Assembly (NCBI GenBank): GCA_020719045.1 | Contig: DYQY01000013.1 | Span: forward strand, 12,461 to 39,413 | DNA: 26,953 nt | Direction of reading: 5' to 3' | Source: Candidatus Termititenax sp. | GTDB taxonomy: Bacteria; Margulisbacteria; Riflemargulisbacteria; GWF2-35-9; DYQY01 | Part shown: in pieces, positions 1 to 26,953 of the stretch | Numbering within the stretch: position 1 is the first letter of the stretch | How the letters are laid out: every line of letters begins with the position of its first letter | Notes under the pieces: model-generated | The model's database searches: none | What the model was told of the DNA's origin: nothing | The model's input: the letters and a program-made list of their open reading frames with translations, nothing else | Translations under genes and position numbers: made by a program

Positions 1-900
1 TAGTAACTTCTTCGTTCAAAGAAACAACTTCAGAATCTAACTTAGGAATACTAGTCTCAGCGTTTTGAAGCTCAGCTTGCATTGGTGCAACTTTCTCCTG
101 TAAAGCCTTAAGGCTTGCTTGTAATGCAACGTTAGCTTCACCCCGTTCTTTAACTTGTTTTTCAAAACCATCAATGCTAAGTTGCAAAGCAACTGCATCT
201 ACTTTGGCTTTAGCAGAAACGTTCACGGCCTCACGTGCTCCACGAAGAGTTGAAAGAGTGGCTTTTTCTTCTTTCTCCAACGTATCTACCTTTTTCTGAT
301 CCTCATTGAATGGTATCCAATCATTAAACTTTGCCTTTTCTGTACCTAAATTAGTTTGCGTAGTTCTAAGCAAACCTTCTAGTCTGGCTACCTCTGTATT
401 TTTAGTTTCTAGATCTCCTGCTGTTGCATTAAGAGTACCTAGCTCAACTTTTTTCTTTGCAATCTCTTCTGTTATTCTTGCTATCTCAGCATCATTTGCT
501 TTTATCTCTGCCTCTATTTTCTTGGATTCTACAATTAGCCTATCCACTTCTGGTTTCAGGTCAGCAACTGTTTTTCTCGCTTTATCTAAAGCTTCTTGCT
601 TCTGTTTAGCTTCTTCTTTCTTCGGACTACTTCCAAGTGCAACAATTTCAGCTTCTAATTCTGCTTTTTTAGCCAGTGCCGCATCAAATGCACTAGTAGC
701 GTTCGCTAAACTAGCAGTTAATTGCTGAACAGATATATTTAAAGCAGCTAACGCCTGAGATTTTTCCTTTAATTCCGTTTCGCTTACTGCTAGATCTTCT
801 TTTGCGCTATCAATAGCCCCCTGACTAACTGCACTAGCACCCAATAATGAACGCTCTACCTTAACATTTTCATCTGCTTGTATTTTAGCCTTCTCAAACA
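1..900 (-). other. Coiled-coil segment at the visible C-terminal end of the giant protein
   Basis: Residues about 5066-5365 are dominated by Lys, Glu, Ala, Leu and Gln in heptad-like spacing (for example KKAELEAEIVALG, KKIEAEIKANDAEIARI, KKKVELGTLNATAGDLETK), with few glycines and almost no aromatics. This predicts a long parallel or antiparallel coiled coil, probably a stalk or oligomerisation region. It runs off the window edge. Confidence 0.75.
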
Positions 901-3900
901 TCTTCACGTAAGCAGATGGAACTCTTCCTCCGCCTTTGAACATCAAGAAAAGTGCTCTATGAAAAACATTGCTTTGCGAGTTAATCTTTACTTCAATTCT
1001 ACTTGTTTCATTTCCTTTTTTATCTTTAAATACCTGAAATAATGTCATTTCCCCTGAATCTGTTACATGTACTTCATAATGTTCTTTTTTATCTTTATAC
1101 TCTTTGCTACCAGTACCTCTCATCTCTATTGTAAAAACATTATCAAGACCATCTTTCCTAGCGTAAGCAAAATCAACATCTATCCTCTGCTTCTGAAGCA
1201 TTGCCATTAAGCTAGATAGATTCTTATCTACATAGTTTATTCGACTTACTTCACCTCTAAGCTTATTCAAAATAGAATTCTCAACCATATCGCCCTTATC
1301 CTTACCAACACTTCTTAAATTCTCAAAAGCTATCTCAAAAGAATATTGGTCAACTTCATTACTTCTGAATAATCCCAAGAAACCACTATCATCAATAGTT
1401 AGAACCATATCCGGGATTCTAGTATCTAATTCATCTCTAAAAACTGCCAACATTTTATTTAAACCAACTAAAGCATCATTATCTTCTGCAATCTTAGCTA
1501 TAATTTTGTCACTAACATTAAACTCTAACCCTTTATTCGCTAGTTCTACTATCAATGTCTGAATACTAGCCTTAAGTTCTGGAGAGCCTTTTGATAACGC
1601 AATTGCATCTATCAACTTATCTTTAGCCTCTATATTTGTTCTATTTGTATGTTTTATACTATTTAAATACTCACTAATTACTGAGTGGGCTGCTTTCCCT
1701 TTAGAAATTTCTCGTACCATTTTCTTTAGACTATCCATATCAATAGCAAGCGTATCGCCTTCGTATTTGTCTTCATCTCTATTTAGGAAAACCGCATTAA
1801 GTTCCTTAAGGGAATCAATACCTTTTGCTTTACGAACATACAATTCTGCTACTAACTGTTTAAACAAATCAAGCTCTTGCTTTCTCTCTTCAGGATAGAG
1901 TTTTGCAGCTTCTTCCTGATCATAGAAAATACTTATTCTTTTGGATTGTTGCAAAACAGAAATTATTTTATTGTTTAAACCTTTAAATTTATCACTCAAA
2001 CCTAAATCTAAATTCTTATCATTTAAATTTATATTTATACTATAATTATTATCTAAAATGCCTTTTGCCTTTAATTGCTCTCTGATTGTTTCAGACTGCT
2101 CCTGTGTTATGCCTTCAATTCCTGAAAAGGCATGTTTTGCAACAGTACTAGGAACTGCACAGACATCCTGTGCCCACTTTTTAAGATATTCAAACTGCTC
2201 GCTTCCAACATTAGCAGCAAGCATCTGATAGTTAGTTTTACCAAAATAATCTACAGCTGATACAATCTCACCAGTTGAGAATCTAAACTGTTGTCCTGGA
2301 TTCTTTTCTTTTCTAATAATCAGCCCTGTTCTACCAAACCCAGCCCAAGTAACTTCTCCACCGTGCATTGCACTACCCTCTGCATTTCCGAAAGTAATAG
2401 CTGCGGACATTCTGCCAAGCCCTGTTATAAGGCCTAGCAAGTCTACCTTTGCTCCAAAATTTACTTTAGACCTAGATGCATCCATTATTTCAACACCTGT
2501 ATTATTACCTAAGGACAACATGTATTTATCTAAATCGACTAAAACCTCTGCATGTAAATGAGGATCGAAGGTTGATATCTCTGCACCTAATCTGACTTTG
2601 ACATCCTCTGTGACTCTGAAGTCTTGCTTCATCTCGATCCCAACATTTAATAAAGCTTCTGGATGGGTAAGGATATTCGCTAAAGATGAACCAAGCTTAA
2701 TCTCAGTATCAAAACCTAGGAAATTAAGGTCCTGTATCCTCAATTTGAAGCTAGCCATTAACTGTTCTAGTTGTTCTGCTTTAAATGACAACCCTTCTGA
2801 TTTTCCGTTATTAGCTAAAACAAACGCTTCTGCAAGAATATATCTCAAAGAAACTTCATAAGAAATCTTAGCAATCAAAGTATCTGCTAATGGGTCGAGT
2901 GACTTTAAGAATCCATATTGAAACTCTGCCCTATCAGAATTTACAAATATGCTTTGCATATTCTCAATCTGAGACAATAATTCAAAATATCTTGTAACTT
3001 CCTCTGGGCTAACTCCGTCAAAATCTGCACTAGCAAACTTATCAAGCTTACTTTTCATATTGTTCAAAAGTAAAGCATTAGCTAATTGATATTCTTCCCT
3101 ATTCCCTAACTCTGTAATAAGTTCATTAAATGCTTTTCTGTCATTACATGTTAATGAAGATAGTTTTTGGCCTTCAACAGTGGTGGCTGATTTCAATGTA
3201 AAAACACCTTTGTATCTCTCTGCATTAAAAGTACTTATCTCTGCTCGTTTACCACTAGGCACAAATTCACCTTTTTCATTAATTTTAAGTCCTAATAAAC
3301 TCATTAAATTATCTAATTGATTATCTGGTACCTGCACATTCTTTACTTCTTTATCTAAAACCATATCTTCTACCATTCTCTTCAAATTATCACGATAAGC
3401 TATTCCTGCTTGTAAACTCATTAGTTGACCTTCACCTGGTTGCTGTACTGTTCCTACTAGGCTTGTTGTAACAGAAGCTCCTTCACCTAAATCTACTTTA
3501 TGTTCAATACCTGGTTGCACTACAGGACCGTCTTCTATCTTGTCTTTATTGGAATTGCTTCTAATTTGTCCTTCTAAAAATGTTGTTAATTCCCCTGTTG
3601 CTAACTTAAATGTTTTTTCCCATCTTGCACCTATTGCCTGTGCTTCCACGCTATCATACTTACCATCAGCTCCAAGGTAGTCATATTTGCCAGAGGTAAC
3701 ATATACATAAACTTTGCCTGTTGTATTATCTTTATACTGAAGACCAAGACTACCATAACGCTGACCTCTGTCATCTATTTGGTAATAACCCATAAAGGTA
3801 AATCTCTCAGATAGTTCTTTAGAGAAATTCGCACTTAATTCATCAGTAACAACTGGCTTCTTTTGTAAGAAAAATTTATCATCATAGCCGCCAACAATCG

Positions 3901-6900
3901 AACCTGGTTGTTGATTTTCTAAATAATGATTATAGTTAAGTCCAAACTGTGAACCTTCACCTTGAAAATCCATACCTAAACTTAACTTCTTAACATCTTG
4001 AATTGTACCTGCTTCTTCTTCACTATAGCCTAGCCTTCCAGTTACAGTGTCATTAAGCGGTATACCCAAATTTAGTTGTTGGTTATCCATTAAATAAGTA
4101 GCATTTGGATCAAAGGTCTTTAACCCATAATCTTTAGCAACTAACTCTTCTTGTTCCCAAGTATATGTATATGTGTATGGCGAAACGACATGATCTACTC
4201 CGTTTTCTGTCCAGGTACCTTCACCTATCTGGATAGTTATCTCGGTTGTTCCATCTGGCAAGCCACCTTCTATTGGAAGTGTCTGGTAAATTGGATATGT
4301 TCCAGAAGCTGTACCAGTATGCGTAACTGTACCCATCTCAGCATTAAGTCCTTCAACCAGTGTATTATTATTCTTCTTATGTGCGCTCATTGCACCATTA
4401 GCTGTTGTAAAATTAACAGACTTCGTAGCTGAATTTAGGTCAAGAGTCATCTTGCCAAGGAACCATCTTCCCTCAACTGAACGATTATCTATCTCAGCAA
4501 CTGGAATAGTCTGAGAGATATCTGCCATACTTGCCTTACGGCTATCTTCCCATCTAACACCAAATGGTGTAAGCATAAATCCATATTCGTTATCAGGCAA
4601 CTTTGCTGGATAGGTTCTTTCAGCTTCGAAATATGACCAACCTTTGTAACCTGCCAATGTTGCTCTTACTCTTAGAAAGGAAGTTTCATCTAGTTTTGAC
4701 AAATTACCCAACAAAGCTGAAGCTCCACTAGGATTAGTTGCAGCAAGTATAGTTGCTGCTTGGTCCCAAGACATTGGAACAACTTCTTTATCTGTTAGCC
4801 CTGCAGTCTGATACTCACCCTTAGCACTATCTACCATACGAACGTAGATTCCCATCAAAGCTTCTTCATAGCTAGCTTTGTCAACAAGTGGCATTTCATT
4901 AAAAGCACCATCCACATCCTGCTTAACTGTTGCATAATCATTAAATCCATTTTGAGCCATCTTGTTATAAGCCAGCATCATTTGATAACGGAAAGCGAAG
5001 TTAGCTTTTTCCAGTTCAGGCAGAGCTATTCCTTCTAAATTAGTTTCCGTTTTCACACCATTGGCTGTATCCAACGCCATTGTTAATAATCTAGCTTCTG
5101 CTTGAAGCTCTTGGTCTTTGCCATCTTTATCAAGTGCTTTATACGCCTCTATCGCTTCTGCAATTTTGCTTGCACCATCGCCACGCTCTCTTGGTCTCAT
5201 CAGTTGTAGTTTATCAAGTAAGATTTCTATCTTTATTTTTAGTAATTCTTTTTTAAAAAAAGCTTTTTTATCATCATTAATCTTTAACGCTTCAACAAAA
5301 CCTAATGCATCATCTGTTAACTTTAATGCCTCATCAAACAACTGAACCTGTCTATAAGCTCCTATCATGTCTGAATAGTCAGACACTTTAATACTTCCAG
5401 GATTCTTAATTAAATCTGCATCAAATATGGTTTTTGCTTCTTTAACATCAGCTACCATTTTTGGGGCTTGTGTTGGAAAATCAGCCATATTAAATACTTT
5501 AGTTTTCGTATCAATGCCACTTCTGTCTGCTTGAGTAGCTAGCTTATTTATAAATGGTGCGTCCTTAGGTAATTCTTGTTTACTGCCAATAAGTGCATCA
5601 AATGTTGCAGTATTCTGACCTGTCTTCTGTAAGAACTTTCTATATATTTCTACTAGCTGAGTAATCTGATGTTCTTGTAGATTATTGCTTTCATCAGAAT
5701 CTTCTTCTATTGCCTTAAAGAAAGCTTCTATTTGGGTAACAGGAGTATCATCCTTAGTTGCTGACTTATCTGCATATTTAATTTCCTGCGCTAAAGATAT
5801 AAATAGTATTTTGTTGTCTATTGCAATATCATTATTTAGAACTATTTCAGAAACCATATCAGAAATTGTTTTTTCAGCAGTTGGTGCTGTGCCTTTAATT
5901 TCTTTATATAAAACCTTTATAACATCTTGCGCTAACTCTATTTTTGGTTCACCACTTACTGCATACAAATTAGCAAAGCCTTTTAGTAATTCTAATTTTT
6001 GCTGAACTACTGAGCCTGCTTCTGGCTTCTGTTTGCCATCACCTAAGTCGCGTTCCTTTGCATCAAAATTAAACTTAAGCAACTCATCATAGTCTCTCTT
6101 AGCAAACATCAAATCTAACGCGTAGCTACGTTTAAGGTCATTTAACTTAGTATCATTGCCAATAAAAGAAGCTGGGAGTAATGTGTCTAGTTTAATATCA
6201 GATAAGTCTAACACTTTACCATTTTTATTTGCCTTTAAATATGTCGCGATATATACGCCTATTGTACCAAGATACTCATTACGCTCTTTGTCCGTCATTG
6301 TTTTAAGGTCATTGCCTTCAAAGTATGAACTTATTACTTCCTTGAATTTTTTACTTGCAGCTGGATATTCTCTTCTCTGAAAATGACCAAGACCACGAAG
6401 AAGTAGTATATTGTTCTGCTCCTTTGCTATCGCATTAGCATCAGAACCACCGACTAGAAGCCCTTCAGCAGCTTTTAAAAACTTATTAAAGTTATCATAT
6501 TCAGCATCTTCCTTAGTTTTTTGTCTATTTAGTATATTAACTGCCTGTAGTACTTTTACGGTTAGCTGGTCTTTTGGTGTTGTAGCAAGTGTTTCTAAAG
6601 CAGTAATCAAGTTGGCTGGCGGAATTAGTTTCCCTTGGTCATCTTTAAGTTTTTCTAAAAACTTACTATCATCAGGTGCTACCTTAAGTAAATTTGCCAA
6701 CTCTAATACTGCTAAGTTAAAAGAAAATTGTTGTTGATCAGTAAGATCAGCATACTTGATTGTCTTTATTATATTAATAACTGACTGATCAGCTTCACTT
6801 TTTAGATTAAATCTTATACTTGCTAACTTATAATCTATATTTTCCTTGAAAGAACCAGGAACTGAATTTAAGGCATTAAAAGCAGCAGTAATATTGTCTG

Positions 6901-9900
6901 TATCTTCTATATTAATAACTTGTTCAAGATAGTAATTGGCAGCAAAGAGGTTCAAGTTATATTTACTTTCATCATCATAGGCTAGCGTAGATAAAGACTT
7001 GTATTGTGCAACAAAGCTTTCTTTATTTAGTGCACCATCATAATAATCTGTTTTTAATTTAGCAAACTCAAAATAGAATCTAAGTTTAGAATCAGTTTTC
7101 TGAAGTGTATCTGAGTCAAGTGCACCAAAATATTCTTTTAAATCTGCAAAATTTGATGTGTTATCCATAAAGTTATCTGCATTATCTTTTACCTTATCAA
7201 GTAAAGCATTAACCACAAATAGGTACATAGCAACCTTGATATCAGCATCTAATTCTACTTGTACTTCACCATCTTTTATCATCTTCACAAGCTCTTTTAC
7301 GCAAGGGATACATGATCCTTCTGCATTAACAAACTCTGCTTCAACTAATTTCCCTTGATACTCCAACGATGCCAACATATACATAACTGTTGTATATGCT
7401 TGTTTAGTCTTTTCTGAAGTATTTTCTTTTACTCCAAGTGCTTTAAATTTATCTATAAACCCAACAGTTAACTCACCATTTTCAACTATTTTCGTAATTC
7501 CAGACTTAGCGACAATAACTCCTTTAAGCTCTTTATATATCTTACTAACGCTTATTTGCAAATCACCAGGTTGTATTTTCTTATTTGGCAACTTTTCAAT
7601 CTTTTTTAATAAATCATCAGCTATGTCAACTAATGCCCAAATATAATAATCACTCTGTTTAATTGCTTCATTTTTAGAAATATTTTCTATCATAGAAGTA
7701 ACTAATTCTTTTACATCTGAATCATTAGTTGCTGCTAATATTTGACGTGCCATTGACTTAACCGTTATTTCCATTTTCAAATCATTAAGAATGTCTTTTG
7801 CCTCATCTATATCATCAATATTCATTCTATATTTTTGATTCTCAATATATTCTTGGCTTGCTTTATCCAATTTAGATATATCTTTTTTAAGTTCACCAAT
7901 ATAAGTATCTAATTCATTAATATTATTAGCAACATGACCATCATCTATGGAATGTATTCCTTTTAAAACTTCATCCATTCCCTGATAGTTGCTTACAGCA
8001 TCTTGTACTTCTTTTGGAAACTCTTTATTAAGCTTATGTAAGTTATTTAATATTAGATGAACAGTTGCTTCTATTTTTACTTTCTCAAATTTTGGGTTGA
8101 TGTAGGTATAATCTGTTTTATCATCAATCAATCCATATGCCGTTTCGAAATTCTTAACTGCTTCAAGTATTTTGTTTGCTTGACCAGATGCATCACCTGA
8201 AGTGCTTATCCTAGAATATTCGATATATCCTTTACTACTATATAACCCAACTGCAAGCTCAATGTCGTCCTTTTTCAATTTATCATTTTTTAGTAACCTA
8301 AGAGTTTGAAAAGCATTAATACCTTTACTGATAGCTTCATCCATTACCGTTTCAGTAGTCTTCTCTTTTTCAACACCTGTAGTAGCATCATTAACTTTTT
8401 CTGTAAGCTTTAAATCTCCAGAAATAACAGCCTTGATTCTTCCTGCATTCATTACTTGTTGCAACTGGGAGACTGTATTAACTATTTTCTTTTCTTTATC
8501 ATCAACTATAATATAGTTATTTAATATTGTTGTAGCATACTCAATTGCCTTTAACCCTAGATTACGGGAAACTGGTTTGTCCTGTTCTGTGGCTACCTTG
8601 AGTTTAATAAAAAGATCGTTCAAGTTATCCCCTATAGCAATATTTCCCTTTTTATTATTTTTATACAGTTTAGCAAAAAAGTTCATTATTGCTTCATCAC
8701 GCTGATTGCGTTGGGCATCCGTTAACCTATCATTTCTTAAAATAAGTTCAAGCAACACTTTAGAAAGTTTTTCATTATCGTCTTTTTCCTGAGTATAGCT
8801 AAGCAAAAACAGCATAATTCTATCATCAATATTTTTCGCCTCTTCACTATTAAAATCCACATTAATAGCATTCTTCGTTAATATTTCATAAATGGCATCC
8901 AAACACTTATTCTTAAAACTTATATCCTTAGAGTCCCTATATTGTTGCATCATCGATTCTAGCTCAAGAAACATAACAACTGTCTTCTCATTATCCCTAT
9001 TCTTAAAATATATAGAATTAACAGCCACTGTTGCCTCTTCGTTTGATAGTTTTCTATTCACATAACCCTCATAATCATTTGGAAACTCTGTTTCCATAAG
9101 AATGCTTTTTGCTAAACTAATATCAGATTTTAAAATCATACCGTCGCTACTAATGACTCCATTTTTAACCAAAGCATCAAAATATAGTTGAGCTCTTCTA
9201 TCAGAAATTCCAGAACAAACAGACATCTGAGTTGGCCAAACTTTTTTAGGATTCATATATTCAGTTATCAAACTCTTATATTTATTAAAATCAGAATTTA
9301 TATCGGAATTACTATTAATGTTCATTTTATAGCTTATAATTGCCTTAATCTCTAACATAGGGATCTCAATACCCCAATTATCGTTAATTATTCTTTTCTT
9401 AAGCTGTTCAACATCGCTAGGGAAAGAAACCAAATTTTGATACTCTGACTTAAATTTATTCAAATCATCAGTATAAGAATACTCTGCTAATCCTATCGAA
9501 AGCTTTAAATACTCATATGCTTTTTGTGAAAGCAACTCAGGTATATTATATTTCTCTTCTAACTCTGTCTTTAAGGAGTTAAAACCTCCGGGACTTCTTG
9601 CTATTTCAATTTTTTCTAATAAAACATTAATAATTGTTCTCTGACGGTTAAGTGATATAGACCTTTCTTGCAACAATCTATTCACATGACCATCTTTTGT
9701 GAATCGTTGATACAATACTGAGTCTTTTTTGGTATACTCGTCAACTGCAAACTTTTTACCATTCACTTCTATCTCTGTTTCTCCATTTTGATTCTCTAAC
9801 AATTTTACTGTTTGTAGCGCTTCAGCTATATCAAGGTTTATTCTCTTAGCACTCACTTCTGGCAACAAACTAAAGCCTGAAACACTATCAATATTCTGCT

Positions 9901-12900
9901 TATCATCAACAACACCCCACTTATCAAGCAAGGTCTTTAATCCAAATAATTTTGTCTGGTCATCAAAATATATATTCTCTAAAATTGTAATTACGGATGA
10001 ATCAACTTTGTCACCATAAAAATCTAACAACGGTAATATTTCATCCTGATTAGTAATAACTTTTTTTGTTACCACATTATTAGAATCAACAAAACCATTT
10101 TCCCTTAATCTTTGTGAAAGCAAAATCGGAGTATCTGGGGAGTCACCTTCATTAAGTGTAAACCAACTCTTTTCAAAACCTTTAACTTCAAAAAAACGCA
10201 TATTGTCATACATTGTGCTTACAGGAACTAGTCCATCTTTACTAGCTGATAATAAATCTTTTACTAACATTTTAACATCATCTGTTATCTGGTATGGTTT
10301 TAAACTATTTAGAATTCCTATCAATTCTTGCACATCACCTGACTGAAAAGACAGCCTAAAATAATCACTTTTTGTTAAGCTATCAGCTTTTTTTTCGAAC
10401 ATCAACTTATATGAATTATTAAAAATATCATCACTCTCTGGTAAGTTTGGATTAAGTTTTTTAATATATTCATCTATGTTTTCTCCTAAAACAGAAGCTG
10501 AGTCAATCATTTTTAATAAAAACTTAACCTTATCCTGAGCAAAGAACTTCTGAAACTTAAATTCACTTTTCCCACTCATAATCTCTCGTAAAAATAGTAA
10601 TCGGTCACTATCAGACATAACATTCAATAAGGAATAAAAATTACTATCCAATAAATCATAATTATCTTTACCATCCGACGCTACTTTTAAAACAACTATC
10701 ATTTCTTTCTTTAATGCTGGATTAACAATATTCTCGGAAACTTTTACATTTGTAACCTCAACATTTTTATGAACATTTTTTAAAGGTACTATATTTCCCT
10801 TTCTAGGGAAAAAAGTATCTTGCTGTGCTAATAACATAAGAGTATTCTCAAAATATTTATTATCTGCATCAGAGTTTACTTGAACAATTGTCTTCTCCAA
10901 ATTAACATTTGCCCCTTTGCCATACTCTAAATAATAAAAAACTGGAAGGTACATTGAAGCCAATGCTGACGGCAAAATCAGATTCTCATATTTTTCTGGT
11001 TTATAACTATCCTTTGTTTTAATTGCTAATGACTGATACTTAGAGTCTGTTGGATAATTTAGCAACATCTTTCCTATTTCCCAAGGTGCTCTCATTCCGT
11101 CGTGAGTCATTTTATTGTAATCTGTTGTTCCATCAGAATATGGAGTAATCAATATATTATTATTATCAACTGAAATATTAAACCTAGAAATAAACGACCC
11201 ACACTGATCCAATATCTTTTCATAAATACACATTGCATCATCGGCTGCTTGTGCAAAAAATTTCTTTACTGATTCATCCATATTATATTTATTAGCAAAA
11301 TTTGCTATATCCATATACGATGAAGGAGTCATATAATCAGTGAAGTAATGTCCATCCCAATCTTCTGATGGCTTTAAAATTATCTTTCCGTCTTGTAAAA
11401 CATTAAAAAGGTTACTCTTCGCATGGACGATTAACTCCATAGCCTTATTCTTATATATATTTCCACCGAACGCCTCATCTGCATAAATAAGCGCTCTAAT
11501 TAAATCTATATCTGCATCAGCAGCTGAATTTCTATTACTTTCTGTTTGAGATGAACTAATTTCAATCTCTTTACCATTTATTGAAACTTTCCATGCAGGG
11601 AACTTTCCATCACCCCCAGCATCATTAGCCAATTTAACCATATTTTCAGTCGCTTTTAAGAGTTTATCAAACACTTGCCTATATTTGATACTATTACTTG
11701 GGTCTATTGTAGCCATTCTTGAAGCAAGAACTAACCAATATGCTTGACCTTCTGAAACTATTTGATTATCTTGAGATGGATCAACTATATATAATCCACC
11801 TGAAAATTCTTGACTAAATCGTTGAAGCCCAGCATCAAATTGCTTTACGATTGTAGCAATTTTATCAATTGATGGCTTTTGATCAACGGCGGGAGGAGAT
11901 ACTTTGTGTGCTTGGCTTGCTTTATCCAATTTAGATATATCTTTTTTCAGGTCACCAATATAAGTATCTAATTCATTAATATTATTAGCAACATGACCAT
12001 CATCAGTAATATCATCTAATAGTAAAAATAGTTTTTGAATATCTGTTTTATCTCCTTCTAAAACTCCCTCAAATCCAGACTGGTGTCCAACACCAATTAT
12101 GGAATGTATTCCTTTTAAAACTTCATCCATTCCCTGATAGTTGCTTACAGCATCTTGTACTTCTTTTGGAAACTCTTTATTAAGCTTATGTAAGTTATTT
12201 AATATTAGATGAACAGTTGCTTCTATTTTTACTTTCTCAAATTTTGGGTTGATGTAGGTATAATCTGTTTTATCATCAATCAATCCATATGCCGTTTCGA
12301 AATTCTTAACTGCTTCAAGTATTTTGTTTGCTTGACCAGATGCATCACCTGAAGTGCTTATCCTAGAATATTCGATATATCCTTTACTACTATATAACCC
12401 AACTGCAAGCTCAATGTCGTCCTTTTTCAATTTATCATTTTTTAGTAACCTAAGAGTTTGAAAAGCATTAATACCTTTACTGATAGCTTCATCCATTACC
12501 GTTTCAGTAGTCTTCTCTTTTTCAACACCTGTAGTAGCATCATTAACTTTTTCTGTAAGCTTTAAATCTCCAGAAATAACAGCCTTGATTCTTCCTGCAT
12601 TCATTACTTGTTGCAACTGGGAGACTGTATTAACTATTTTCTTTTCTTTATCATCAACTATAATATAGTTATTTAATATTGTTGTAGCATACTCAATTGC
12701 CTTTAACCCTAGATTACGGGAAACTGGTTTGTCCTGTTCTGTGGCTACCTTGAGTTTAATAAAAAGATCGTTCAAGTTATCCCCTATAGCAATATTTCCC
12801 TTTTTATTATTTTTATACAGTTTAGCAAAAAAGTTCATTATTGCTTCATCACGCTGATTGCGTTGGGCATCCGTTAACCTATCATTTCTTAAAATAAGTT

Positions 12901-15900
12901 CAAGCAACACTTTAGAAAGTTTTTCATTATCGTCTTTTTCCTGAGTATAGCTAAGCAAAAACAGCATAATTCTATCATCAATATTTTTCGCCTCTTCACT
13001 ATTAAAATCCACATTAATAGCATTCTTCGTTAATATTTCATAAATGGCATCCAAACACTTATTCTTAAAACTTATATCCTTAGAGTCCCTATATTGTTGC
13101 ATCATCGATTCTAGCTCAAGAAACATAACAACTGTCTTCTCATTATCCCTATTCTTAAAATATATAGAATTAACAGCCACTGTTGCCTCTTCGTTTGATA
13201 GTTTTCTATTCACATAACCCTCATAATCATTTGGAAACTCTGTTTCCATAAGAATGCTTTTTGCTAAACTAATATCAGATTTTAAAATCATACCGTCGCT
13301 ACTAATGACTCCATTTTTAACCAAAGCATCAAAATATAGTTGAGCTCTTCTATCAGAAATTCCAGAACAAACAGACATCTGAGTTGGCCAAACTTTTTTA
13401 GGATTCATATATTCAGTTATCAAACTCTTATATTTATTAAAATCAGAATTTATATCGGAATTACTATTAATGTTCATTTTATAGCTTATAATTGCCTTAA
13501 TCTCTAACATAGGGATCTCAATACCCCAATTATCGTTAATTATTCTTTTCTTAAGCTGTTCAACATCGCTAGGGAAAGAAACCAAATTTTGATACTCTGA
13601 CTTAAATTTATTCAAATCATCAGTATAAGAATACTCTGCTAATCCTATCGAAAGCTTTAAATACTCATATGCTTTTTGTGAAAGCAACTCAGGTATATTA
13701 TATTTCTCTTCTAACTCTGTCTTTAAGGAGTTAAAACCTCCGGGACTTCTTGCTATTTCAATTTTTTCTAATAAAACATTAATAATTGTTCTCTGACGGT
13801 TAAGTGATATAGACCTTTCTTGCAACAATCTATTCACATGACCATCTTTTGTGAATCGTTGATACAATACTGAGTCTTTTTTGGTATACTCGTCAACTGC
13901 AAACTTTTTACCATTCACTTCTATCTCTGTTTCTCCATTTTGATTCTCTAACAATTTTACTGTTTGTAGCGCTTCAGCTATATCAAGGTTTATTCTCTTA
14001 GCACTCACTTCTGGCAACAAACTAAAGCCTGAAACACTATCAATATTCTGCTTATCATCAACAACACCCCACTTATCAAGCAAGGTCTTTAATCCAAATA
14101 ATTTTGTCTGGTCATCAAAATATATATTCTCTAAAATTGTAATTACGGATGAATCAACTTTGTCACCATAAAAATCTAACAACGGTAATATTTCATCCTG
14201 ATTAGTAATAACTTTTTTTGTTACCACATTATTAGAATCAACAAAACCATTTTCCCTTAATCTTTGTGAAAGCAAAATCGGAGTATCTGGGGAGTCACCT
14301 TCATTAAGTGTAAACCAACTCTTTTCAAAACCTTTAACTTCAAAAAAACGCATATTGTCATACATTGTGCTTACAGGAACTAGTCCATCTTTACTAGCTG
14401 ATAATAAATCTTTTACTAACATTTTAACATCATCTGTTATCTGGTATGGTTTTAAACTATTTAGAATTCCTATCAATTCTTGCACATCACCTGACTGAAA
14501 AGACAGCCTAAAATAATCACTTTTTGTTAAGCTATCAGCTTTTTTTTCGAACATCAACTTATATGAATTATTAAAAATATCATCACTCTCTGGTAAGTTT
14601 GGATTAAGTTTTTTAATATATTCATCTATGTTTTCTCCTAAAACAGAAGCTGAGTCAATCATTTTTAATAAAAACTTAACCTTATCCTGAGCAAAGAACT
14701 TCTGAAACTTAAATTCACTTTTCCCACTCATAATCTCTCGTAAAAATAGTAATCGGTCACTATCAGACATAACATTCAATAAGGAATAAAAATTACTATC
14801 CAATAAATCATAATTATCTTTACCATCCGACGCTACTTTTAAAACAACTATCATTTCTTTCTTTAATGCTGGATTAACAATATTCTCGGAAACTTTTACA
14901 TTTGTAACCTCAACATTTTTATGAACATTTTTTAAAGGTACTATATTTCCCTTTCTAGGGAAAAAAGTATCTTGCTGTGCTAATAACATAAGAGTATTCT
15001 CAAAATATTTATTATCTGCATCAGAGTTTACTTGAACAATTGTCTTCTCCAAATTAACATTTGCCCCTTTGCCATACTCTAAATAATAAAAAACTGGAAG
15101 GTACATTGAAGCCAATGCTGACGGCAAAATCAGATTCTCATATTTTTCTGGTTTATAACTATCCTTTGTTTTAATTGCTAATGACTGATACTTAGAGTCT
15201 GTTGGATAATTTAGCAACATCTTTCCTATTTCCCAAGGTGCTCTCATTCCGTCGTGAGTCATTTTATTGTAATCTGTTGTTCCATCAGAATATGGAGTAA
15301 TCAATATATTATTATTATCAACTGAAATATTAAACCTAGAAATAAACGACCCACACTGATCCAATATCTTTTCATAAATACACATTGCATCATCGGCTGC
15401 TTGTGCAAAAAATTTCTTTACTGATTCATCCATATTATATTTATTAGCAAAATTTGCTATATCCATATACGATGAAGGAGTCATATAATCAGTGAAGTAA
15501 TGTCCATCCCAATCTTCTGATGGCTTTAAAATTATCTTTCCGTCTTGTAAAACATTAAAAAGGTTACTCTTCGCATGGACGATTAACTCCATAGCCTTAT
15601 TCTTATATATATTTCCACCGAACGCCTCATCTGCATAAATAAGCGCTCTAATTAAATCTATATCTGCATCAGCAGCTGAATTTCTATTACTTTCTGTTTG
15701 AGATGAACTAATTTCAATCTCTTTACCATTTATTGAAACTTTCCATGCAGGGAACTTTCCATCACCCCCAGCATCATTAGCCAATTTAACCATATTTTCA
15801 GTCGCTTTTAAGAGTTTATCAAACACTTGCCTATATTTGATACTATTACTTGGGTCTATTGTAGCCATTCTTGAAGCAAGAACTAACCAATATGCTTGAC

Positions 15901-16096
15901 CTTCTGAAACTATTTGATTATCTTGAGATGGATCAACTATATATAATCCACCTGAAAATTCTTGACTAAATCGTTGAAGCCCAGCATCAAATTGCTTTAC
16001 GATTGTAGCAATTTTATCAATTGATGGCTTTTGATCAACGGCGGGAGGAGATACTTTGTGTGCTTCACTTGCTTTATCAATTATTGGACCTGGCAT
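1..16096 (-). CDS. Giant multidomain protein with two GH8-like modules, 3' end beyond the window
   Basis: The frame starts at the ATG at 16094-16096 (MPGPIIDKAS) after a strong AGGAGG with a 7-base spacer, and has no stop down to base 1, so at least 5,365 residues are encoded and the C-terminus is missing. Visible order: a unit with a GH8-like module (about residues 35-360) followed by a long helical part; a second, apparently identical unit from residue 1396; a helical region with TPR-like hairpins (about 2750-3800); beta-rich regions (about 3870-4250 and 4440-4626); and a charged coiled coil (about 5066 onward). GH8 hallmarks are SEGQAY (E65), NSAADADIDL (D143, D145), PSSYMDIANF and HDGMRAPWEI (D282), repeated 1,384 residues later. 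I see no signal peptide and no clear transmembrane helix. Family knowledge suggests beta-glucan or related polysaccharide hydrolysis. A role in envelope or prey-wall processing is inference. Confidence 0.9.
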   Translation of the reverse strand, partial: MPGPIIDKASEAHKVSPPAVDQKPSIDKIATIVKQFDAGLQRFSQEFSGGLYIVDPSQDNQIVSEGQAYWLVLASRMATIDPSNSIKYRQVFDKLLKATENMVKLANDAGGDGKFPAWKVSINGKEIEISSSQTESNRNSAADADIDLIRALIYADEAFGGNIYKNKAMELIVHAKSNLFNVLQDGKIILKPSEDWDGHYFTDYMTPSSYMDIANFANKYNMDESVKKFFAQAADDAMCIYEKILDQCGSFISRFNISVDNNNILITPYSDGTTDYNKMTHDGMRAPWEIGKMLLNYPTDSKYQSLAIKTKDSYKPEKYENLILPSALASMYLPVFYYLEYGKGANVNLEKTIVQVNSDADNKYFENTLMLLAQQDTFFPRKGNIVPLKNVHKNVEVTNVKVSENIVNPALKKEMIVVLKVASDGKDNYDLLDSNFYSLLNVMSDSDRLLFLREIMSGKSEFKFQKFFAQDKVKFLLKMIDSASVLGENIDEYIKKLNPNLPESDDIFNNSYKLMFEKKADSLTKSDYFRLSFQSGDVQELIGILNSLKPYQITDDVKMLVKDLLSASKDGLVPVSTMYDNMRFFEVKGFEKSWFTLNEGDSPDTPILLSQRLRENGFVDSNNVVTKKVITNQDEILPLLDFYGDKVDSSVITILENIYFDDQTKLFGLKTLLDKWGVVDDKQNIDSVSGFSLLPEVSAKRINLDIAEALQTVKLLENQNGETEIEVNGKKFAVDEYTKKDSVLYQRFTKDGHVNRLLQERSISLNRQRTIINVLLEKIEIARSPGGFNSLKTELEEKYNIPELLSQKAYEYLKLSIGLAEYSYTDDLNKFKSEYQNLVSFPSDVEQLKKRIINDNWGIEIPMLEIKAIISYKMNINSNSDINSDFNKYKSLITEYMNPKKVWPTQMSVCSGISDRRAQLYFDALVKNGVISSDGMILKSDISLAKSILMETEFPNDYEGYVNRKLSNEEATVAVNSIYFKNRDNEKTVVMFLELESMMQQYRDSKDISFKNKCLDAIYEILTKNAINVDFNSEEAKNIDDRIMLFLLSYTQEKDDNEKLSKVLLELILRNDRLTDAQRNQRDEAIMNFFAKLYKNNKKGNIAIGDNLNDLFIKLKVATEQDKPVSRNLGLKAIEYATTILNNYIIVDDKEKKIVNTVSQLQQVMNAGRIKAVISGDLKLTEKVNDATTGVEKEKTTETVMDEAISKGINAFQTLRLLKNDKLKKDDIELAVGLYSSKGYIEYSRISTSGDASGQANKILEAVKNFETAYGLIDDKTDYTYINPKFEKVKIEATVHLILNNLHKLNKEFPKEVQDAVSNYQGMDEVLKGIHSIIGVGHQSGFEGVLEGDKTDIQKLFLLLDDITDDGHVANNINELDTYIGDLKKDISKLDKASQAHKVSPPAVDQKPSIDKIATIVKQFDAGLQRFSQEFSGGLYIVDPSQDNQIVSEGQAYWLVLASRMATIDPSNSIKYRQVFDKLLKATENMVKLANDAGGDGKFPAWKVSINGKEIEISSSQTESNRNSAADADIDLIRALIYADEAFGGNIYKNKAMELIVHAKSNLFNVLQDGKIILKPSEDWDGHYFTDYMTPSSYMDIANFANKYNMDESVKKFFAQAADDAMCIYEKILDQCGSFISRFNISVDNNNILITPYSDGTTDYNKMTHDGMRAPWEIGKMLLNYPTDSKYQSLAIKTKDSYKPEKYENLILPSALASMYLPVFYYLEYGKGANVNLEKTIVQVNSDADNKYFENTLMLLAQQDTFFPRKGNIVPLKNVHKNVEVTNVKVSENIVNPALKKEMIVVLKVASDGKDNYDLLDSNFYSLLNVMSDSDRLLFLREIMSGKSEFKFQKFFAQDKVKFLLKMIDSASVLGENIDEYIKKLNPNLPESDDIFNNSYKLMFEKKADSLTKSDYFRLSFQSGDVQELIGILNSLKPYQITDDVKMLVKDLLSASKDGLVPVSTMYDNMRFFEVKGFEKSWFTLNEGDSPDTPILLSQRLRENGFVDSNNVVTKKVITNQDEILPLLDFYGDKVDSSVITILENIYFDDQTKLFGLKTLLDKWGVVDDKQNIDSVSGFSLLPEVSAKRINLDIAEALQTVKLLENQNGETEIEVNGKKFAVDEYTKKDSVLYQRFTKDGHVNRLLQERSISLNRQRTIINVLLEKIEIARSPGGFNSLKTELEEKYNIPELLSQKAYEYLKLSIGLAEYSYTDDLNKFKSEYQNLVSFPSDVEQLKKRIINDNWGIEIPMLEIKAIISYKMNINSNSDINSDFNKYKSLITEYMNPKKVWPTQMSVCSGISDRRAQLYFDALVKNGVISSDGMILKSDISLAKSILMETEFPNDYEGYVNRKLSNEEATVAVNSIYFKNRDNEKTVVMFLELESMMQQYRDSKDISFKNKCLDAIYEILTKNAINVDFNSEEAKNIDDRIMLFLLSYTQEKDDNEKLSKVLLELILRNDRLTDAQRNQRDEAIMNFFAKLYKNNKKGNIAIGDNLNDLFIKLKVATEQDKPVSRNLGLKAIEYATTILNNYIIVDDKEKKIVNTVSQLQQVMNAGRIKAVISGDLKLTEKVNDATTGVEKEKTTETVMDEAISKGINAFQTLRLLKNDKLKKDDIELAVGLYSSKGYIEYSRISTSGDASGQANKILEAVKNFETAYGLIDDKTDYTYINPKFEKVKIEATVHLILNNLHKLNKEFPKEVQDAVSNYQGMDEVLKGIHSIDDGHVANNINELDTYIGELKKDISKLDKASQEYIENQKYRMNIDDIDEAKDILNDLKMEITVKSMARQILAATNDSDVKELVTSMIENISKNEAIKQSDYYIWALVDIADDLLKKIEKLPNKKIQPGDLQISVSKIYKELKGVIVAKSGITKIVENGELTVGFIDKFKALGVKENTSEKTKQAYTTVMYMLASLEYQGKLVEAEFVNAEGSCIPCVKELVKMIKDGEVQVELDADIKVAMYLFVVNALLDKVKDNADNFMDNTSNFADLKEYFGALDSDTLQKTDSKLRFYFEFAKLKTDYYDGALNKESFVAQYKSLSTLAYDDESKYNLNLFAANYYLEQVINIEDTDNITAAFNALNSVPGSFKENIDYKLASIRFNLKSEADQSVINIIKTIKYADLTDQQQFSFNLAVLELANLLKVAPDDSKFLEKLKDDQGKLIPPANLITALETLATTPKDQLTVKVLQAVNILNRQKTKEDAEYDNFNKFLKAAEGLLVGGSDANAIAKEQNNILLLRGLGHFQRREYPAASKKFKEVISSYFEGNDLKTMTDKERNEYLGTIGVYIATYLKANKNGKVLDLSDIKLDTLLPASFIGNDTKLNDLKRSYALDLMFAKRDYDELLKFNFDAKERDLGDGKQKPEAGSVVQQKLELLKGFANLYAVSGEPKIELAQDVIKVLYKEIKGTAPTAEKTISDMVSEIVLNNDIAIDNKILFISLAQEIKYADKSATKDDTPVTQIEAFFKAIEEDSDESNNLQEHQITQLVEIYRKFLQKTGQNTATFDALIGSKQELPKDAPFINKLATQADRSGIDTKTKVFNMADFPTQAPKMVADVKEAKTIFDADLIKNPGSIKVSDYSDMIGAYRQVQLFDEALKLTDDALGFVEALKINDDKKAFFKKELLKIKIEILLDKLQLMRPRERGDGASKIAEAIEAYKALDKDGKDQELQAEARLLTMALDTANGVKTETNLEGIALPELEKANFAFRYQMMLAYNKMAQNGFNDYATVKQDVDGAFNEMPLVDKASYEEALMGIYVRMVDSAKGEYQTAGLTDKEVVPMSWDQAATILAATNPSGASALLGNLSKLDETSFLRVRATLAGYKGWSYFEAERTYPAKLPDNEYGFMLTPFGVRWEDSRKASMADISQTIPVAEIDNRSVEGRWFLGKMTLDLNSATKSVNFTTANGAMSAHKKNNNTLVEGLNAEMGTVTHTGTASGTYPIYQTLPIEGGLPDGTTEITIQIGEGTWTENGVDHVVSPYTYTYTWEQEELVAKDYGLKTFDPNATYLMDNQQLNLGIPLNDTVTGRLGYSEEEAGTIQDVKKLSLGMDFQGEGSQFGLNYNHYLENQQPGSIVGGYDDKFFLQKKPVVTDELSANFSKELSERFTFMGYYQIDDRGQRYGSLGLQYKDNTTGKVYVYVTSGKYDYLGADGKYDSVEAQAIGARWEKTFKLATGELTTFLEGQIRSNSNKDKIEDGPVVQPGIEHKVDLGEGASVTTSLVGTVQQPGEGQLMSLQAGIAYRDNLKRMVEDMVLDKEVKNVQVPDNQLDNLMSLLGLKINEKGEFVPSGKRAEISTFNAERYKGVFTLKSATTVEGQKLSSLTCNDRKAFNELITELGNREEYQLANALLLNNMKSKLDKFASADFDGVSPEEVTRYFELLSQIENMQSIFVNSDRAEFQYGFLKSLDPLADTLIAKISYEVSLRYILAEAFVLANNGKSEGLSFKAEQLEQLMASFKLRIQDLNFLGFDTEIKLGSSLANILTHPEALLNVGIEMKQDFRVTEDVKVRLGAEISTFDPHLHAEVLVDLDKYMLSLGNNTGVEIMDASRSKVNFGAKVDLLGLITGLGRMSAAITFGNAEGSAMHGGEVTWAGFGRTGLIIRKEKNPGQQFRFSTGEIVSAVDYFGKTNYQMLAANVGSEQFEYLKKWAQDVCAVPSTVAKHAFSGIEGITQEQSETIREQLKAKGILDNNYSININLNDKNLDLGLSDKFKGLNNKIISVLQQSKRISIFYDQEEAAKLYPEERKQELDLFKQLVAELYVRKAKGIDSLKELNAVFLNRDEDKYEGDTLAIDMDSLKKMVREISKGKAAHSVISEYLNSIKHTNRTNIEAKDKLIDAIALSKGSPELKASIQTLIVELANKGLEFNVSDKIIAKIAEDNDALVGLNKMLAVFRDELDTRIPDMVLTIDDSGFLGLFRSNEVDQYSFEIAFENLRSVGKDKGDMVENSILNKLRGEVSRINYVDKNLSSLMAMLQKQRIDVDFAYARKDGLDNVFTIEMRGTGSKEYKDKKEHYEVHVTDSGEMTLFQVFKDKKGNETSRIEVKINSQSNVFHRALFLMFKGGGRVPSAYVKMFEKAKIQADENVKVERSLLGASAVSQGAIDSAKEDLAVSETELKEKSQALAALNISVQQLTASLANATSAFDAALAKKAELEAEIVALGSSPKKEEAKQKQEALDKARKTVADLKPEVDRLIVESKKIEAEIKANDAEIARITEEIAKKKVELGTLNATAGDLETKNTEVARLEGLLRTTQTNLGTEKAKFNDWIPFNEDQKKVDTLEKEEKATLSTLRGAREAVNVSAKAKVDAVALQLSIDGFEKQVKERGEANVALQASLKALQEKVAPMQAELQNAETSIPKLDSEVVSLNEEVT
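2219..2779 (-). other. Second beta-rich region of the giant protein
   Basis: Residues about 4440-4626 again show alternating strands (FKLRIQDLNFLGF, LLNVGIEMKQDF, DVKVRLGAEIS, HLHAEVLVDLDKYMLSLG, SKVNFGAKVDLLG, RMSAAITFG, GEVTWAGFGRTGLII). A mostly helical insert separates it from the first beta region. The two could be halves of one barrel or separate sheets. Confidence 0.4.
3347..4489 (-). other. Beta-rich region with outer-membrane-hairpin-like pattern
   Basis: Residues about 3870-4250 switch sharply from helical to beta composition. Gly, Thr, Ser and Asn become frequent, and segments of 8-11 residues alternate polar and hydrophobic side chains: QLNLGIPLN, TVTGRLGYS, KLSLGMDFQ, SQFGLNYNHYL, LSANFSKEL, RFTFMGYYQID, YGSLGLQYKD, VYVYVTSGKY, AQAIGARWEK, ELTTFLEGQI. 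They are joined by short polar turns and aromatic ends, which is the pattern of membrane beta-hairpins. A preceding stretch (GTVTHTGTASGTYPIY and a YTYTYTW run) reads as an Ig-like or linker beta region. A soluble beta-sandwich or fibre is the alternative. Confidence 0.45.
5000..7850 (-). other. Helical, TPR-like region of the giant protein
   Basis: Residues about 2750-3700 are almost entirely helical in composition, with amphipathic pairs resembling tetratricopeptide hairpins. The clearest is near residue 3226 (plus 6421 downward): NNILLLRGLGHFQRREYPAA followed by SKKFKEVISSYFEG, with small and aromatic residues at the usual TPR positions. Other pairs are more divergent, so this is a solenoid-like scaffold by inference, probably for protein or glycan-chain contacts. 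A CxxC pair (SCIPC) near 7300 is the only notable cysteine motif. Confidence 0.5.
7852..7945 (-). repeat. Short linker module, copy 2
   Basis: Partner of 11911-12004. It encodes DDGHVANNINELD through LDKASQ (residues 2718-2748) and then enters unique sequence (EYIENQKYRMN). Relative to the first junction, the preceding 31 codons are absent, so the large unit ends GIHSI and passes directly into this module. Confidence 0.85.
7946..11926 (-). repeat. Long in-frame tandem direct repeat, copy 2
   Basis: Second copy of the unit at 12098-16078 (residues about 1391-2717). On the low-coordinate side it joins directly to the short DDGHVANN module at 7852-7945. In copy 1 an extra 93 bases (12005-12097, 31 codons) sit between the unit and that module. 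Absence of synonymous drift indicates a recent duplication, ongoing homogenisation, or an assembly artefact. Confidence 0.93.
10865..11842 (-). other. GH8-like domain, second copy in the giant protein
   Basis: This is the copy of the first GH8-like domain displaced by exactly 4,152 bases (1,384 codons). The sequence looks identical, so the same candidate catalytic residues fall at E1449, D1527/D1529 and D1666. Two intact modules in one chain suggest avidity or processivity, or simply a recent duplication. Nothing separates these explanations within the window. Confidence 0.75.
11911..12004 (-). repeat. Short linker module, copy 1 (DDGHVANN...DKASQ)
   Basis: Ninety-four bases encoding a helical linker (residues 1365-1395, beginning DDGHVANNINELD and ending KLDKASQ) that closes the first large unit and leads straight into AHKVSPP of the second. 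It matches 7852-7945 at an offset of 4,059 bases, not 4,152, with two substitutions, one synonymous and one changing D to E. This shows the large duplication and the linker have different histories. Confidence 0.85.
12098..16078 (-). repeat. Long in-frame tandem direct repeat, copy 1 (N-terminal unit)
   Basis: About 3.98 kb matching 7946-11926 at a constant offset of 4,152 bases. In every stretch I lined up (near 8041, 8401, 9001, 9601, 10201, 10801, 11401 and 11701, plus both ends) I saw no difference except two bases close to the right end (16066-16067 against 11914-11915). The offset is a multiple of three, so the frame is kept. The unit encodes a GH8-like domain plus about 960 residues of helical sequence of unknown function. 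Confidence 0.93.
15017..15994 (-). other. GH8-like domain, first copy in the giant protein
   Basis: Residues about 35-360 follow the GH8 (alpha/alpha)6-barrel signature order: VSEGQAYWL, FPAWKV, NSAADADIDLIRALIYA, LKPSEDWDGHYF, TPSSYMDIANFA and HDGMRAPWEIGKMLL. In GH8 endoglucanases the Glu of SEGQ-Y is the proton donor and the Asp of the D-(A)-R-x-P motif is the general base in one subfamily. Both are kept here as E65 and D282, and the Asp-rich motif supplies D143 and D145. The length, about 325 residues, matches the family. Activity therefore looks possible. Substrate preference (cellulose, mixed-linkage glucan, chitosan or xylan-type) cannot be read from this. Placement rests on motif recognition, not a profile search. 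Confidence 0.75.
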
Positions 16097-16219
16097 TAAG
16101 TAACCTCCTATTAATATACACTATCAATAATATATCGATATACAATTAATAAATTCCCACTAAATACGTCTTTTAAACTACTAAATATATGGTTAATATC
16201 TGTTGTTATTCGAAATAGG
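16097..16219 (-). other. 123-base intergenic gap with a 12-base AT palindrome
   Basis: This gap separates the 1,223-residue gene from the giant gene. I see no GC-rich hairpin with a T-run, so no intrinsic terminator, and no convincing -35/-10 pair at 17-base spacing. The perfect palindrome TATATCGATATA lies at 16131-16142, upstream of the ribosome site. It could be an operator or chance in AT-rich DNA. The gap is wide enough for a secondary promoter, but read-through from upstream is equally likely. Confidence 0.4.
16101..16109 (-). promoter_or_regulatory. Shine-Dalgarno sequence of the giant gene
   Basis: On the minus strand AGGAGGTTA precedes the ATG at 16096. The AGGAGG core (16104-16109) is 7 bases from the start, near the optimum. 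It decides the start of the giant protein and implies strong initiation for a very long message. Confidence 0.85.
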
Positions 16220-19200
16220 TTAGTAGTGATTCACTGTTGCAATCTGCCTGTAAATATAATCATACGCTCTATTTCCATCAGATTTTCTAACACTTAAGAT
16301 TTCATCATCGCACAAATCCAATAATTTTGTTTTTTGATTTTCTCTTCTATACAATATAGCTAAATTAAATAAAAACTCAACATATGCCTCATGGTTTCCA
16401 ACTTGTTTTGTGGTATTCAATACTTCAGATATTTCATTAACCAATTTAGATTTAGCATCTACATTGGAAAGATCCACACTCTGAACATCTCGCCTTAACT
16501 TCAAAGCATAATACTTAAAATTTGAATGTTTATAATCAGGTATTTCATTATCAATATATTTATACAATCCCTCTACCTTATTACCTAAAAGCGCATCACA
16601 TTTTTCCATCTTGCTTGATGAAGCATCAATCTGATAATCCACCCAAAACAACAAGTTAAGTGACTGAGTTAATAAAGAAATGTAACTAGCCTTTGACTCT
16701 TTTTTATACGCATCAAACATATCTCGATCAAATCTATCCACAAAATCTGACGTTGCTACACTGATACTTCCTCTATTAATATTTTCAGCATATGGCATAG
16801 AAAGTTTAGTTAACTCCACAAATTCTTTTACTAAATCTCTCAGGGATTCTTCGTTTTCTGAATTAACTCCATTTTCAAAAATTTTTGATATTTTCTGAAA
16901 AACCAACTGCTGATGTGCTTGATAAATCATAAAATATCTTTGCATATAAAGCTTCTTATCTTGAATGCTATTATTCTTAATATCTACTAACGATTCTTTT
17001 ATAAAAACTTCTCTTTCATTAAATGTAAAATTATGACTGTACATTACCTGAGATAGTGGTTGACTCAAATACTTATCTGGCGTGACACGCAAGACCATCT
17101 TTAAATCATTAGATAATTCTCTCACTCCATCCCTATTTGTCTCTTTTCTATTCTTCTCAGAACTTATCGTTTCTTGTAACACCCTAAATGATTGAGACTT
17201 TGTTTCTGAAACCTGTTTTTCTAACCATAATTGCACTTGACCGACATCTCTAGTTAAAGGAAAAACAAAATGCCCATTAACTATATACTTATTAAACTTA
17301 CTCTCAAATTCGTTATACTCTTTTCCTGAAGATAGAATACTTTTAGCCTTAGATATTTCTAGTGAAACGCCAAAAGCTATTTGTGTGTCTCTTTTTAATA
17401 CTTCTTGAATTAATAATTTCTTTAAATTCGAAGAAATAGGTAAAACTAATATATCCTGGATACTTATCTTGTCAGTATTTATACTTACTCCATTAATTTC
17501 AGTTATAATGGTATTATAGTTATAGACATTATGAACATTTGCTCGCCTGTCTTCCATATATTTAACTATACTTTTTATACCATTACTTCGCCAATCAATT
17601 TGACCAGCTGTTTTCTTTAATACATCTCTTTCTCCATCTGTCATAACATCCCACAACAATATTTTTTCTAAATACAATGCACTTACAATTGGGTTATCAA
17701 ACCCACTTTTTCCCAAATAATTTGTTATTGATAGAATCATTTTATCTATCTCATCCACAATCTGCCTATCAGAGTAACCAAACATATTTCTTAGGTTCTC
17801 TAAATTATAAGAAACTAAATGAACACAACTTTTACTAACTCTCTCTGAGTATGGCTCATAATCTCCTCCCATTGCTCTTTTTGCTTTATCAATACCAGTA
17901 CCTGCAACTAAATTATCAATACCCAAGTTGAAGGCTGCTTTATTTATTGCATCCAACGCCTTATAGCTCATATATCCTGTATATATATTTTTCTCTGAGT
18001 TATCTTTATTATACATATCAGCTAACTTAGCTGTTTCAATAATAAGTCTCTTGTAAAGCAAATCACCAAACTCAGACATTGTTCTTGAATTACTTAAATC
18101 TATGTATGCCATAAACGATTTTTCTAATGCACTTGGATTATCTTGATACTTGCTTCCTCTAAAAATATTTACTGGGGTTTTTGAAACTGAATAAATCTGA
18201 TTCTCTGATACGACTGAAAGGTCTGCATCCTTAACTTCAAATCCAGAGTCTAAAAGATCACTATCCATACCTCTCGTTGTTAATCCCCAGTGCCTAGATA
18301 AATTTAACAAATTCACAATACCGTAAGCATTGTTATAAAGAGTATCATCGTATAAAGACATATTTAAGCCAGAGCTTACATTGCTTGTCTTTCCAACATT
18401 TTTAATTTGATTCAAATAATAATAGTAAGAACTGTCTGTTCTATCTGGAATATTAAAGGAGTTTAACTCAAGATCTGTTCTCCAGTTTAGTCTTGAATTC
18501 GAAGAATGTGCTCTTGAGCTTTCGTCCAATGTTTTCTTAGTGTCCAAAAGAAAGACGTATCTACCTTTAGAATCTACGGTAACATGAACACTTTCAGGAA
18601 AATTATCTTTAAACGTATCTTGGTCAACACCAAATAAAAGTTGTCCTCTAAAATCATTTGAATCAACTAATAACTTATTGTAATTCCTATATAAATGGTC
18701 AGAACCTTCAAATCTTTTCTGATGATCACTCTTAAAAAAATCTCTTATCTCTTTAATAAAATTATCACTAGGATAGGAAGGAAAGAACTCATAAAAAATA
18801 CCACTCTGCTTGCTAGTAGGAGTTGCTTCTTTTGCAAAAGGAATACCCGCCTTCTCTTCAATCGAATATTCTTTATCTAGCCCTGGCACTAACGCTCCAG
18901 TACCCAGAATTAACTTGAAATGGTTATTACCGTTTTCATCTAAATAAGAAAACATTTTTACATCCTGGTCAAGAATATGTCTGGCATAAGAATACACTAA
19001 GTATCTTAATTCTCTATCTTTAGAAGCCCAACTCCACTTCTTTAAACCTTTAATTAGCGCTGCACAAATATCTATATCAGAATCAGAAGCAGAAGCATTC
19101 CCGTAATACCTATTATCTGCCCTCGAAGCAATCTCAAAAGGAAAAGGATCTTTTAAAGATTTAATCAAACTGTTTAGCTGCTTTTTACTAACAATACTTT

Positions 19201-26889: not shown

Positions 26890-26901
26890 TTTTATATTTC
26901 G

Positions 26902-26905
26902 CCTC
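26902..26905 (-). promoter_or_regulatory. Probable ribosome binding site of the 2,326-residue gene
   Basis: GAGG lies 12 bases before the ATG at 26889. The spacing is long and the match short, so it is weaker than the other two sites. It overlaps a TGA (26904-26906) that could end an upstream gene, an arrangement common in operons. Confidence 0.5.
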
Positions 26906-26953
26906 AATAATTTATCGTAACGTTTCTGAAATATTCCCACAAAAATGTCATAT
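26904..26953 (-). CDS. Possible 3' end of an upstream gene (about 16 codons visible)
   Basis: In another minus-strand frame the last bases of the window read MTFLWEYFRNVTINY and stop at TGA (26904-26906), 14 bases before the chosen start of the 2,326-residue gene. The spacing resembles the other gene junction here and would explain why the ribosome site sits where it does. So few codons being open is easily chance, and the product cannot be named. Confidence 0.25.
   Translation of the reverse strand, partial: MTFLWEYFRNVTINY

Follow-up and report, generated by a model that had tools for sequence, protein, structure and literature searches.

A giant gene with an exactly duplicated, predicted GH8 unit in a Margulisiibacteriota bacterium

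RESULTS

A giant coding frame and its neighbours

The window, that is, the whole stretch of 26,953 nucleotides analysed here (G000:C20:12461-39413), belongs to a genome of 1.75 Mb in 31 contigs that is 99% complete. A giant frame and, beside it, two other very large genes (g2 and g3) occupy its minus strand (Table 1). This agrees with a preliminary description made from the letters of the window, which had placed the giant frame at 1-16096 with its strand left unstated.

Table 1. Positions of the features in the window
Feature	Window position	Strand	Remarks
Giant ORF	2..16096	minus	5,365 stop-free codons in the window; 5,569 residues in all
AGGAGG ribosome-binding site	16104..16109	minus	7 bases 5' of the giant's ATG (from sequence)
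GH8 module 1	14942..16024	minus	residues 25-385; Pfam match 53-219
GH8 module 2	10790..11872	minus	residues 1409-1769; identical to module 1
Repeat copy 1	12098..16065	minus	exact 3,968-bp in-frame tandem repeat
Repeat copy 2	7946..11913	minus	offset from copy 1 4,152 nt = 1,384 codons
93-nt stretch	12005..12097	minus	found after copy 1 only
91-nt flank repeat, before copy 2	11914..12004	minus	differs from its counterpart at 2 positions
91-nt flank repeat, after copy 2	7855..7945	minus	
Helical solenoid, TPR-like	4607..7099	minus	residues 3000-3830; orthologous to S39c of G028, 36-37%
Beta-rich region	2147..4549	minus	residues 3850-4650; conserved at 25% in G028
Predicted coiled coil	2..829	minus	from about residue 5090; weak SMC coiled-coil match (from sequence)
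g2	16220..19891	minus	1,223 aa; N-terminal part GH8-like (residues 105-175); signal peptide absent
g3	19909..26940	minus	at least 2,343 aa, reaches the contig end; C-terminal part with hydrophobic membrane segments

The giant frame opens at a single ATG (window position 16096) behind a ribosome site that had been called excellent; an in-frame stop lies shortly 5' of this ATG, and counting from stop to stop adds only 8 residues to the frame. The chance of so many open codons at the base composition of the window is minute (log10 P about -213), a GC1>GC2>GC3 coding pattern runs along almost the whole frame, and GC3 is steady at 0.19-0.27, compared with 0.22-0.29 in housekeeping genes nearby. The frame is a true coding gene of a Margulisiibacteriota bacterium. 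As had been noted, it does not end in the window: extended on the contig, it stops at C20:11847, 204 codons outside, which gives a gene of 16.7 kb. A run of 100 N (C20:12361-12460) abuts the first base of the window inside the frame, and 34 of the giant's residues fall in it. Assemblies commonly use exactly 100 N to stand for an unspecified distance, so the true length of the giant is uncertain at this point, and its last 169 residues are part of it only provided that the frame really runs on. No convincing homologue of these residues was found in eight genomes of the class, and the piece past the gap is thus tied to the giant by frame and orientation only. The assemblies of both this and the sister species (G028) break within the coiled-coil part of the third giant gene (C20:12361-12460 and the 3' end of L017 respectively), which suggests repetitive sequence there.

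The likeness to giant genes of Omnitrophota had been taken as a pointer to the lineage of the DNA. A SecD tree of 35 rows instead grouped the genome with Margulisiibacteriota/Saganbacteria, with a 100/99 split from all seven Omnitrophota rows (one long-branched Chloroflexota row on the same side is not trustworthy). This tree rules out Omnitrophota as the source, and the genome belongs to Margulisiibacteriota. On the other side of the giant lie bacA, secF, secD, tgt, a GH57 gene and a homoserine dehydrogenase gene; secF, secD, tgt and the GH57 gene are also grouped in G028, on contig C2, with identities of 67-94%, showing that the giant locus lies in the chromosome. The linked type II secretion genes proposed as a check were not seen, the only secretin of the genome being encoded on another contig; its presence makes an outer membrane probable.

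By hydropathy and N-terminal sequence, neither the giant nor g2 has a signal peptide or a membrane segment (in the giant, no 19-residue segment reached a mean hydropathy of 1.6). The GH8 signature of g2 scores over the Pfam cut-off at 27.2 bits. In G033, g2 has a relative whose length is 1,255 aa or more; the gene that comes after this relative measures 2,489 aa or more. The other two GH8 genes of the genome encode a 2,020-aa protein on C28, with a hydrophobic segment at its start, and a 591-aa protein on C22, with a probable signal peptide. The former (L019:5935-11997) has a hydrophobic segment near each end and lies beside two ABC-transporter permease genes. Close to the latter, a ~2,995-aa ORF with internal repeats is followed by ORFs of 1,223 and 1,174 aa (G000:C22:56043-65030, minus strand; L020 and L132). 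Within g3, a 60-aa module (NKYSYNKDTGELTFIGEMT...; window 23059-23238, residues 1235-1294) is 42-49% identical with the sister giant S39c and a frame of G033, the surrounding sequence being unrelated.

The N-terminal part is duplicated in the assembly without a mismatch

The two copies of the repeat are identical over all 3,968 bp. The duplicated unit measures ~1,384 aa and carries the GH8 module at its start; without one copy the protein would measure ~4,185 aa. The copies are separated by 93 nt that occur a single time and by a flank of 91 nt, of which a second version, changed at two positions, follows copy 2. In the assembly, the two-copy duplication has a copy-to-copy junction of distinct sequence, unlike both the gene start and the downstream flank. 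This unique junction indicates that the adjacency of the copies is probably real. An 11-bp match, GATAAAGCAAG, occurs at both repeat boundaries (gene start and flank) and could have seeded a duplication by unequal recombination. The duplication of the GH8 unit is apparently very recent. Such an exact, recent duplication is unusual, and it had been missed in the preliminary description.

The GH8 modules retain two candidate catalytic acids

The GH8-like modules described earlier were recovered by Pfam (PF01270, 26.5 bits, cut-off 24), and a GH8 profile search gave 31.7 bits at each of the two repeat copies. Relatives of the module in genomes of the class are 33-40% identical to it; they include sequences from G034 and from G028 (the latter 386 aa long and located at a contig end). 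The motifs SEG and DAD are invariant in the module and these relatives. Profile alignment to CelA structures set E65 against Glu95 and D143 against Asp152, the catalytic residues in CelA numbering. The E65 part of the alignment to 1kwf, the E95Q structure of CelA with glutamine at the Glu95 position, is a separate low-scoring stretch. The motif DGMRAPWEI, a candidate for the position of the second catalytic Asp (CelA D278), is kept in two of three relatives; L032 ends before the motif, and the structure alignment stops short of it. The fold of GH8 enzymes is an (alpha/alpha)6 barrel. A structure model of residues 1-1190 (mean pLDDT 44.0) was mainly helical and of low confidence in the module (pLDDT 23-49), and residues 400-1170 were predicted, also with low confidence, to be mostly helical. 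Taken together, the alignments show homology of the modules to GH8, with two predicted catalytic acids in place.

The C-terminal half is a separate gene in the sister species

The helical, beta-rich and coiled-coil stretches described earlier were also found. Residues 3000-3818 of the giant match S39c, a gene of G028, at 37%, and residues 3983-4670 match it at 25%; the coiled coil is predicted from a weak SMC match. An amphipathic-strand signal in residues 4460-4620 amounted to 0.27 against 0.10 in shuffles (2.6 times), with 0.26 in the sister sequence. The structure model of residues 3820-4670 had a mean pLDDT of 29.6, and in it a helical stretch interrupts the beta region. Since the structure models are of low confidence, it is patterns in the sequence that underlie the reading as a solenoid and a beta-barrel.

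Judged by these alignments, the C-terminal part of the giant corresponds to an independent gene in the sister species: S39c stands alone in G028, where the GH8 sequence lies on another contig. Relatives of the C-terminal half were absent from the 74 genomes of the phylum other than G028, and none appeared in GTDB 220 genomes or viral contigs scanned with two short peptide patterns per scan. For the presumed fusion point (residues ~2717-3000) no relative was found in any genome searched. A 71-aa module is common to giant residues 4651-4721 and the sister giant S45c (L018, giant residues 143-216), suggesting that small pieces move between giant genes.

Giant clusters elsewhere in the class

G028 is the sole other species of the genus among the genomes compared. 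Its SecD and TGT are 90-94% identical with those of the present genome, as opposed to 25-37% for the giant; together with the separate C-terminal half in G028, this contrast points to a probable fusion in a fast-evolving giant cluster. Contigs C45 and C39 of G028 overlap by 166 bp at 99%, and three giants lie there in a row: A (~3,898 aa), B (2,338 aa) and C (S39c, at least 2,864 aa). Two paralogues (660 and 577 aa, 47% identical; L018:265-4170) lie directly upstream of the first of these, and the first paralogue gave no significant Pfam match. Giant clusters of a comparable kind are present in three further genomes of the class, and a fourth has a similar pair of genes. In G030, an A-like gene (open frame 3,979) adjoins a B-like gene; on a second contig a B-like gene adjoins a gene of at least 2,096 aa, and this positional counterpart of the third giant carries TPR matches. 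G034 has two giant frames: one is A-like (5,021), and in the other (at least 4,357) B-like sequence is joined to sequence matching the third gene of G030, a fusion of neighbouring giants comparable to the one proposed here.

Neither the A nor the B family was found in the genome of the window. Their places are occupied by g3 and g2, for which no homology to the sister's neighbouring giants A and B was detected. The N-terminal domain of the B family aligned with GH8 in an order-preserving but non-significant manner (E about 0.002, probability 12%) and gave no GH8 match among solved structures; from this alignment it may be a GH8 relative without the catalytic Glu. A repeated motif, L..NG.ID..G.I, sought across the giants was not convincing (12 in 36,181 residues, mostly seeds, against 3 in 31,504 in the control).

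DISCUSSION

We infer, tentatively and at somewhat less than even chance, that the giant arose by fusion of a GH8 unit, since duplicated, to an older giant gene, and that it places an enzyme on an envelope scaffold. A GH8-bearing N-terminal unit would have been joined to a formerly separate giant gene comprising the TPR-like solenoid, the beta-rich region and the coiled coil, and would have been tandemly duplicated after the fusion. The paired GH8 domains may cleave a beta-1,4-linked polysaccharide akin to cellulose, glucan or chitosan, with the rest of the chain serving as a long scaffold that would hold them at a fixed place. The giant would then sit in or on the cell envelope, probably together with its membrane-anchored neighbour g3, after export by a route that uses no Sec signal. 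The location is the weakest link: the absence of a Sec signal is observed, and the other route is a guess; a giant protein that has neither signal peptide nor membrane segment fits an extracellular role poorly. Our best reading is a predicted GH8 glucanase on a giant scaffold, possibly exported without Sec.

The same absence speaks for a cytoplasmic role, a serious rival, albeit an unlikely one. The giant would be a scaffold that is not exported, its GH8 acting inside the cell or its fold reused for binding. Both the giant and g2 differ in this respect from the other two GH8 genes of the genome, which carry such a signal or segment, and the possible loss of the catalytic Glu in the weakly GH8-like domain of family B would fit reuse of the fold. 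Yet the giant's GH8 retains two predicted catalytic acids, g3 next door has membrane segments, and we know of no cytoplasmic beta-1,4-glucan in such cells. Considerably less probable still is a one-chain machine for exopolysaccharide export, which would combine in a single protein what BcsZ (GH8) and BcsC (TPR and outer-membrane barrel) do separately. The order of the parts is the same, from GH8 through a TPR-like solenoid to a beta-rich region with an amphipathic-strand signal, and the secretin makes an outer membrane probable. A solenoid followed by a beta-rich region, with a glycoside hydrolase in the system, likewise recalls the BcsC/PgaA exporters. In contrast with these, no cellulose synthase was found in the genome (the best TIGR03030 match to BcsA is 20.5 bits, cut-off 699.1), the BcsC barrel profile is absent from the Pfam matches of the beta-rich region up to E = 1, the giant lacks a signal peptide, and its beta region is broken by a helical stretch in the low-confidence model. 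A cellulose-secretion machine is rejected on the missing synthase and barrel-model match.

It is also conceivable, although improbable, that part of the giant's size is a product of assembly, by a graph loop or a join of strain variants, and that the gene holds one GH8 unit (~4,185 aa) or some other number. The copies show no difference, yet the flanks that adjoin them differ by the 93-nt stretch and two substitutions, a pattern expected if an assembler passes twice along one edge that lies between different edges, and the same contig carries the 100-N scaffold gap. On the other hand, the distinct junction means that reads must have supported the copy-to-copy adjacency unless the junction is chimeric, the repeat keeps the frame (4,152 = 3 x 1,384), and GC3 is uniform along the frame.

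The fused and duplicated giant that we favour resembles several known systems in part. Giant ORFs have been described in Omnitrophota (Seymour et al. 2023, PMC10066038); they too are poorly conserved, have few annotated domains, belong to an uncultured lineage with small genomes and have a proposed use against polysaccharides of other cells. They differ in phylum and size (more than 20 kb, against 16.7 kb here), and most of those in the class Omnitrophia combine membrane helices with large domains predicted to be extracellular, some of them adhesive, neither of which the present giant has (PMC10066038). The V. archaeovorus giant likewise has transmembrane helices, unlike the Margulisiibacteriota giant, which in turn differs from the Omnitrophota giants in carrying GH8. 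A paper citing the latter names Elusimicrobia and CG03 as well (PMC12057145). In a survey of huge proteins, Margulisbacteria are reported among six bacterial phyla enriched in proteins of more than 5,000 residues, the same phylum and size range as here; the accessible part of the survey only counts these cases and describes no architecture, cluster or GH8 duplication (PMC11573180). CelA of Clostridium thermocellum and BcsZ share with the giant the signature around the catalytic Glu and Asp and a PF01270 score over the cut-off, but they are small secreted enzymes, whereas here two identical modules start a giant chain that has no signal peptide. Giant adhesins secreted by the type I route also have no N-terminal signal peptide. 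Pfam gave no RTX nonapeptide or Ig-like repeat arrays in the parts of the giant searched, and no linked ABC transporter with a membrane-fusion protein on the 39-kb contig.

The giant belongs to a kind of gene already known; its lineage is new, and the recent duplication within it is unusual. We would regard it as a long shot that a class of Margulisiibacteriota holds an undescribed, fast-evolving locus of two to three giants (one membrane-anchored, one GH8-like and one of TPR/beta/coiled-coil type) whose parts repeatedly fuse and exchange; an apparently active GH8 unit would have been captured and doubled in the third gene of this species, and the products would form a polysaccharide-degrading complex that spans the envelope without signal peptides. 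Omnitrophota are not alone in having giant genes that carry glycoside hydrolase domains. In uncultured bacteria, giant genes have been known chiefly as orphans, and these two congeneric species show one being built, with a diverged giant, a probably fused enzyme and a duplication free of mismatches. They offer a concrete case for asking how giant genes grow and turn over.
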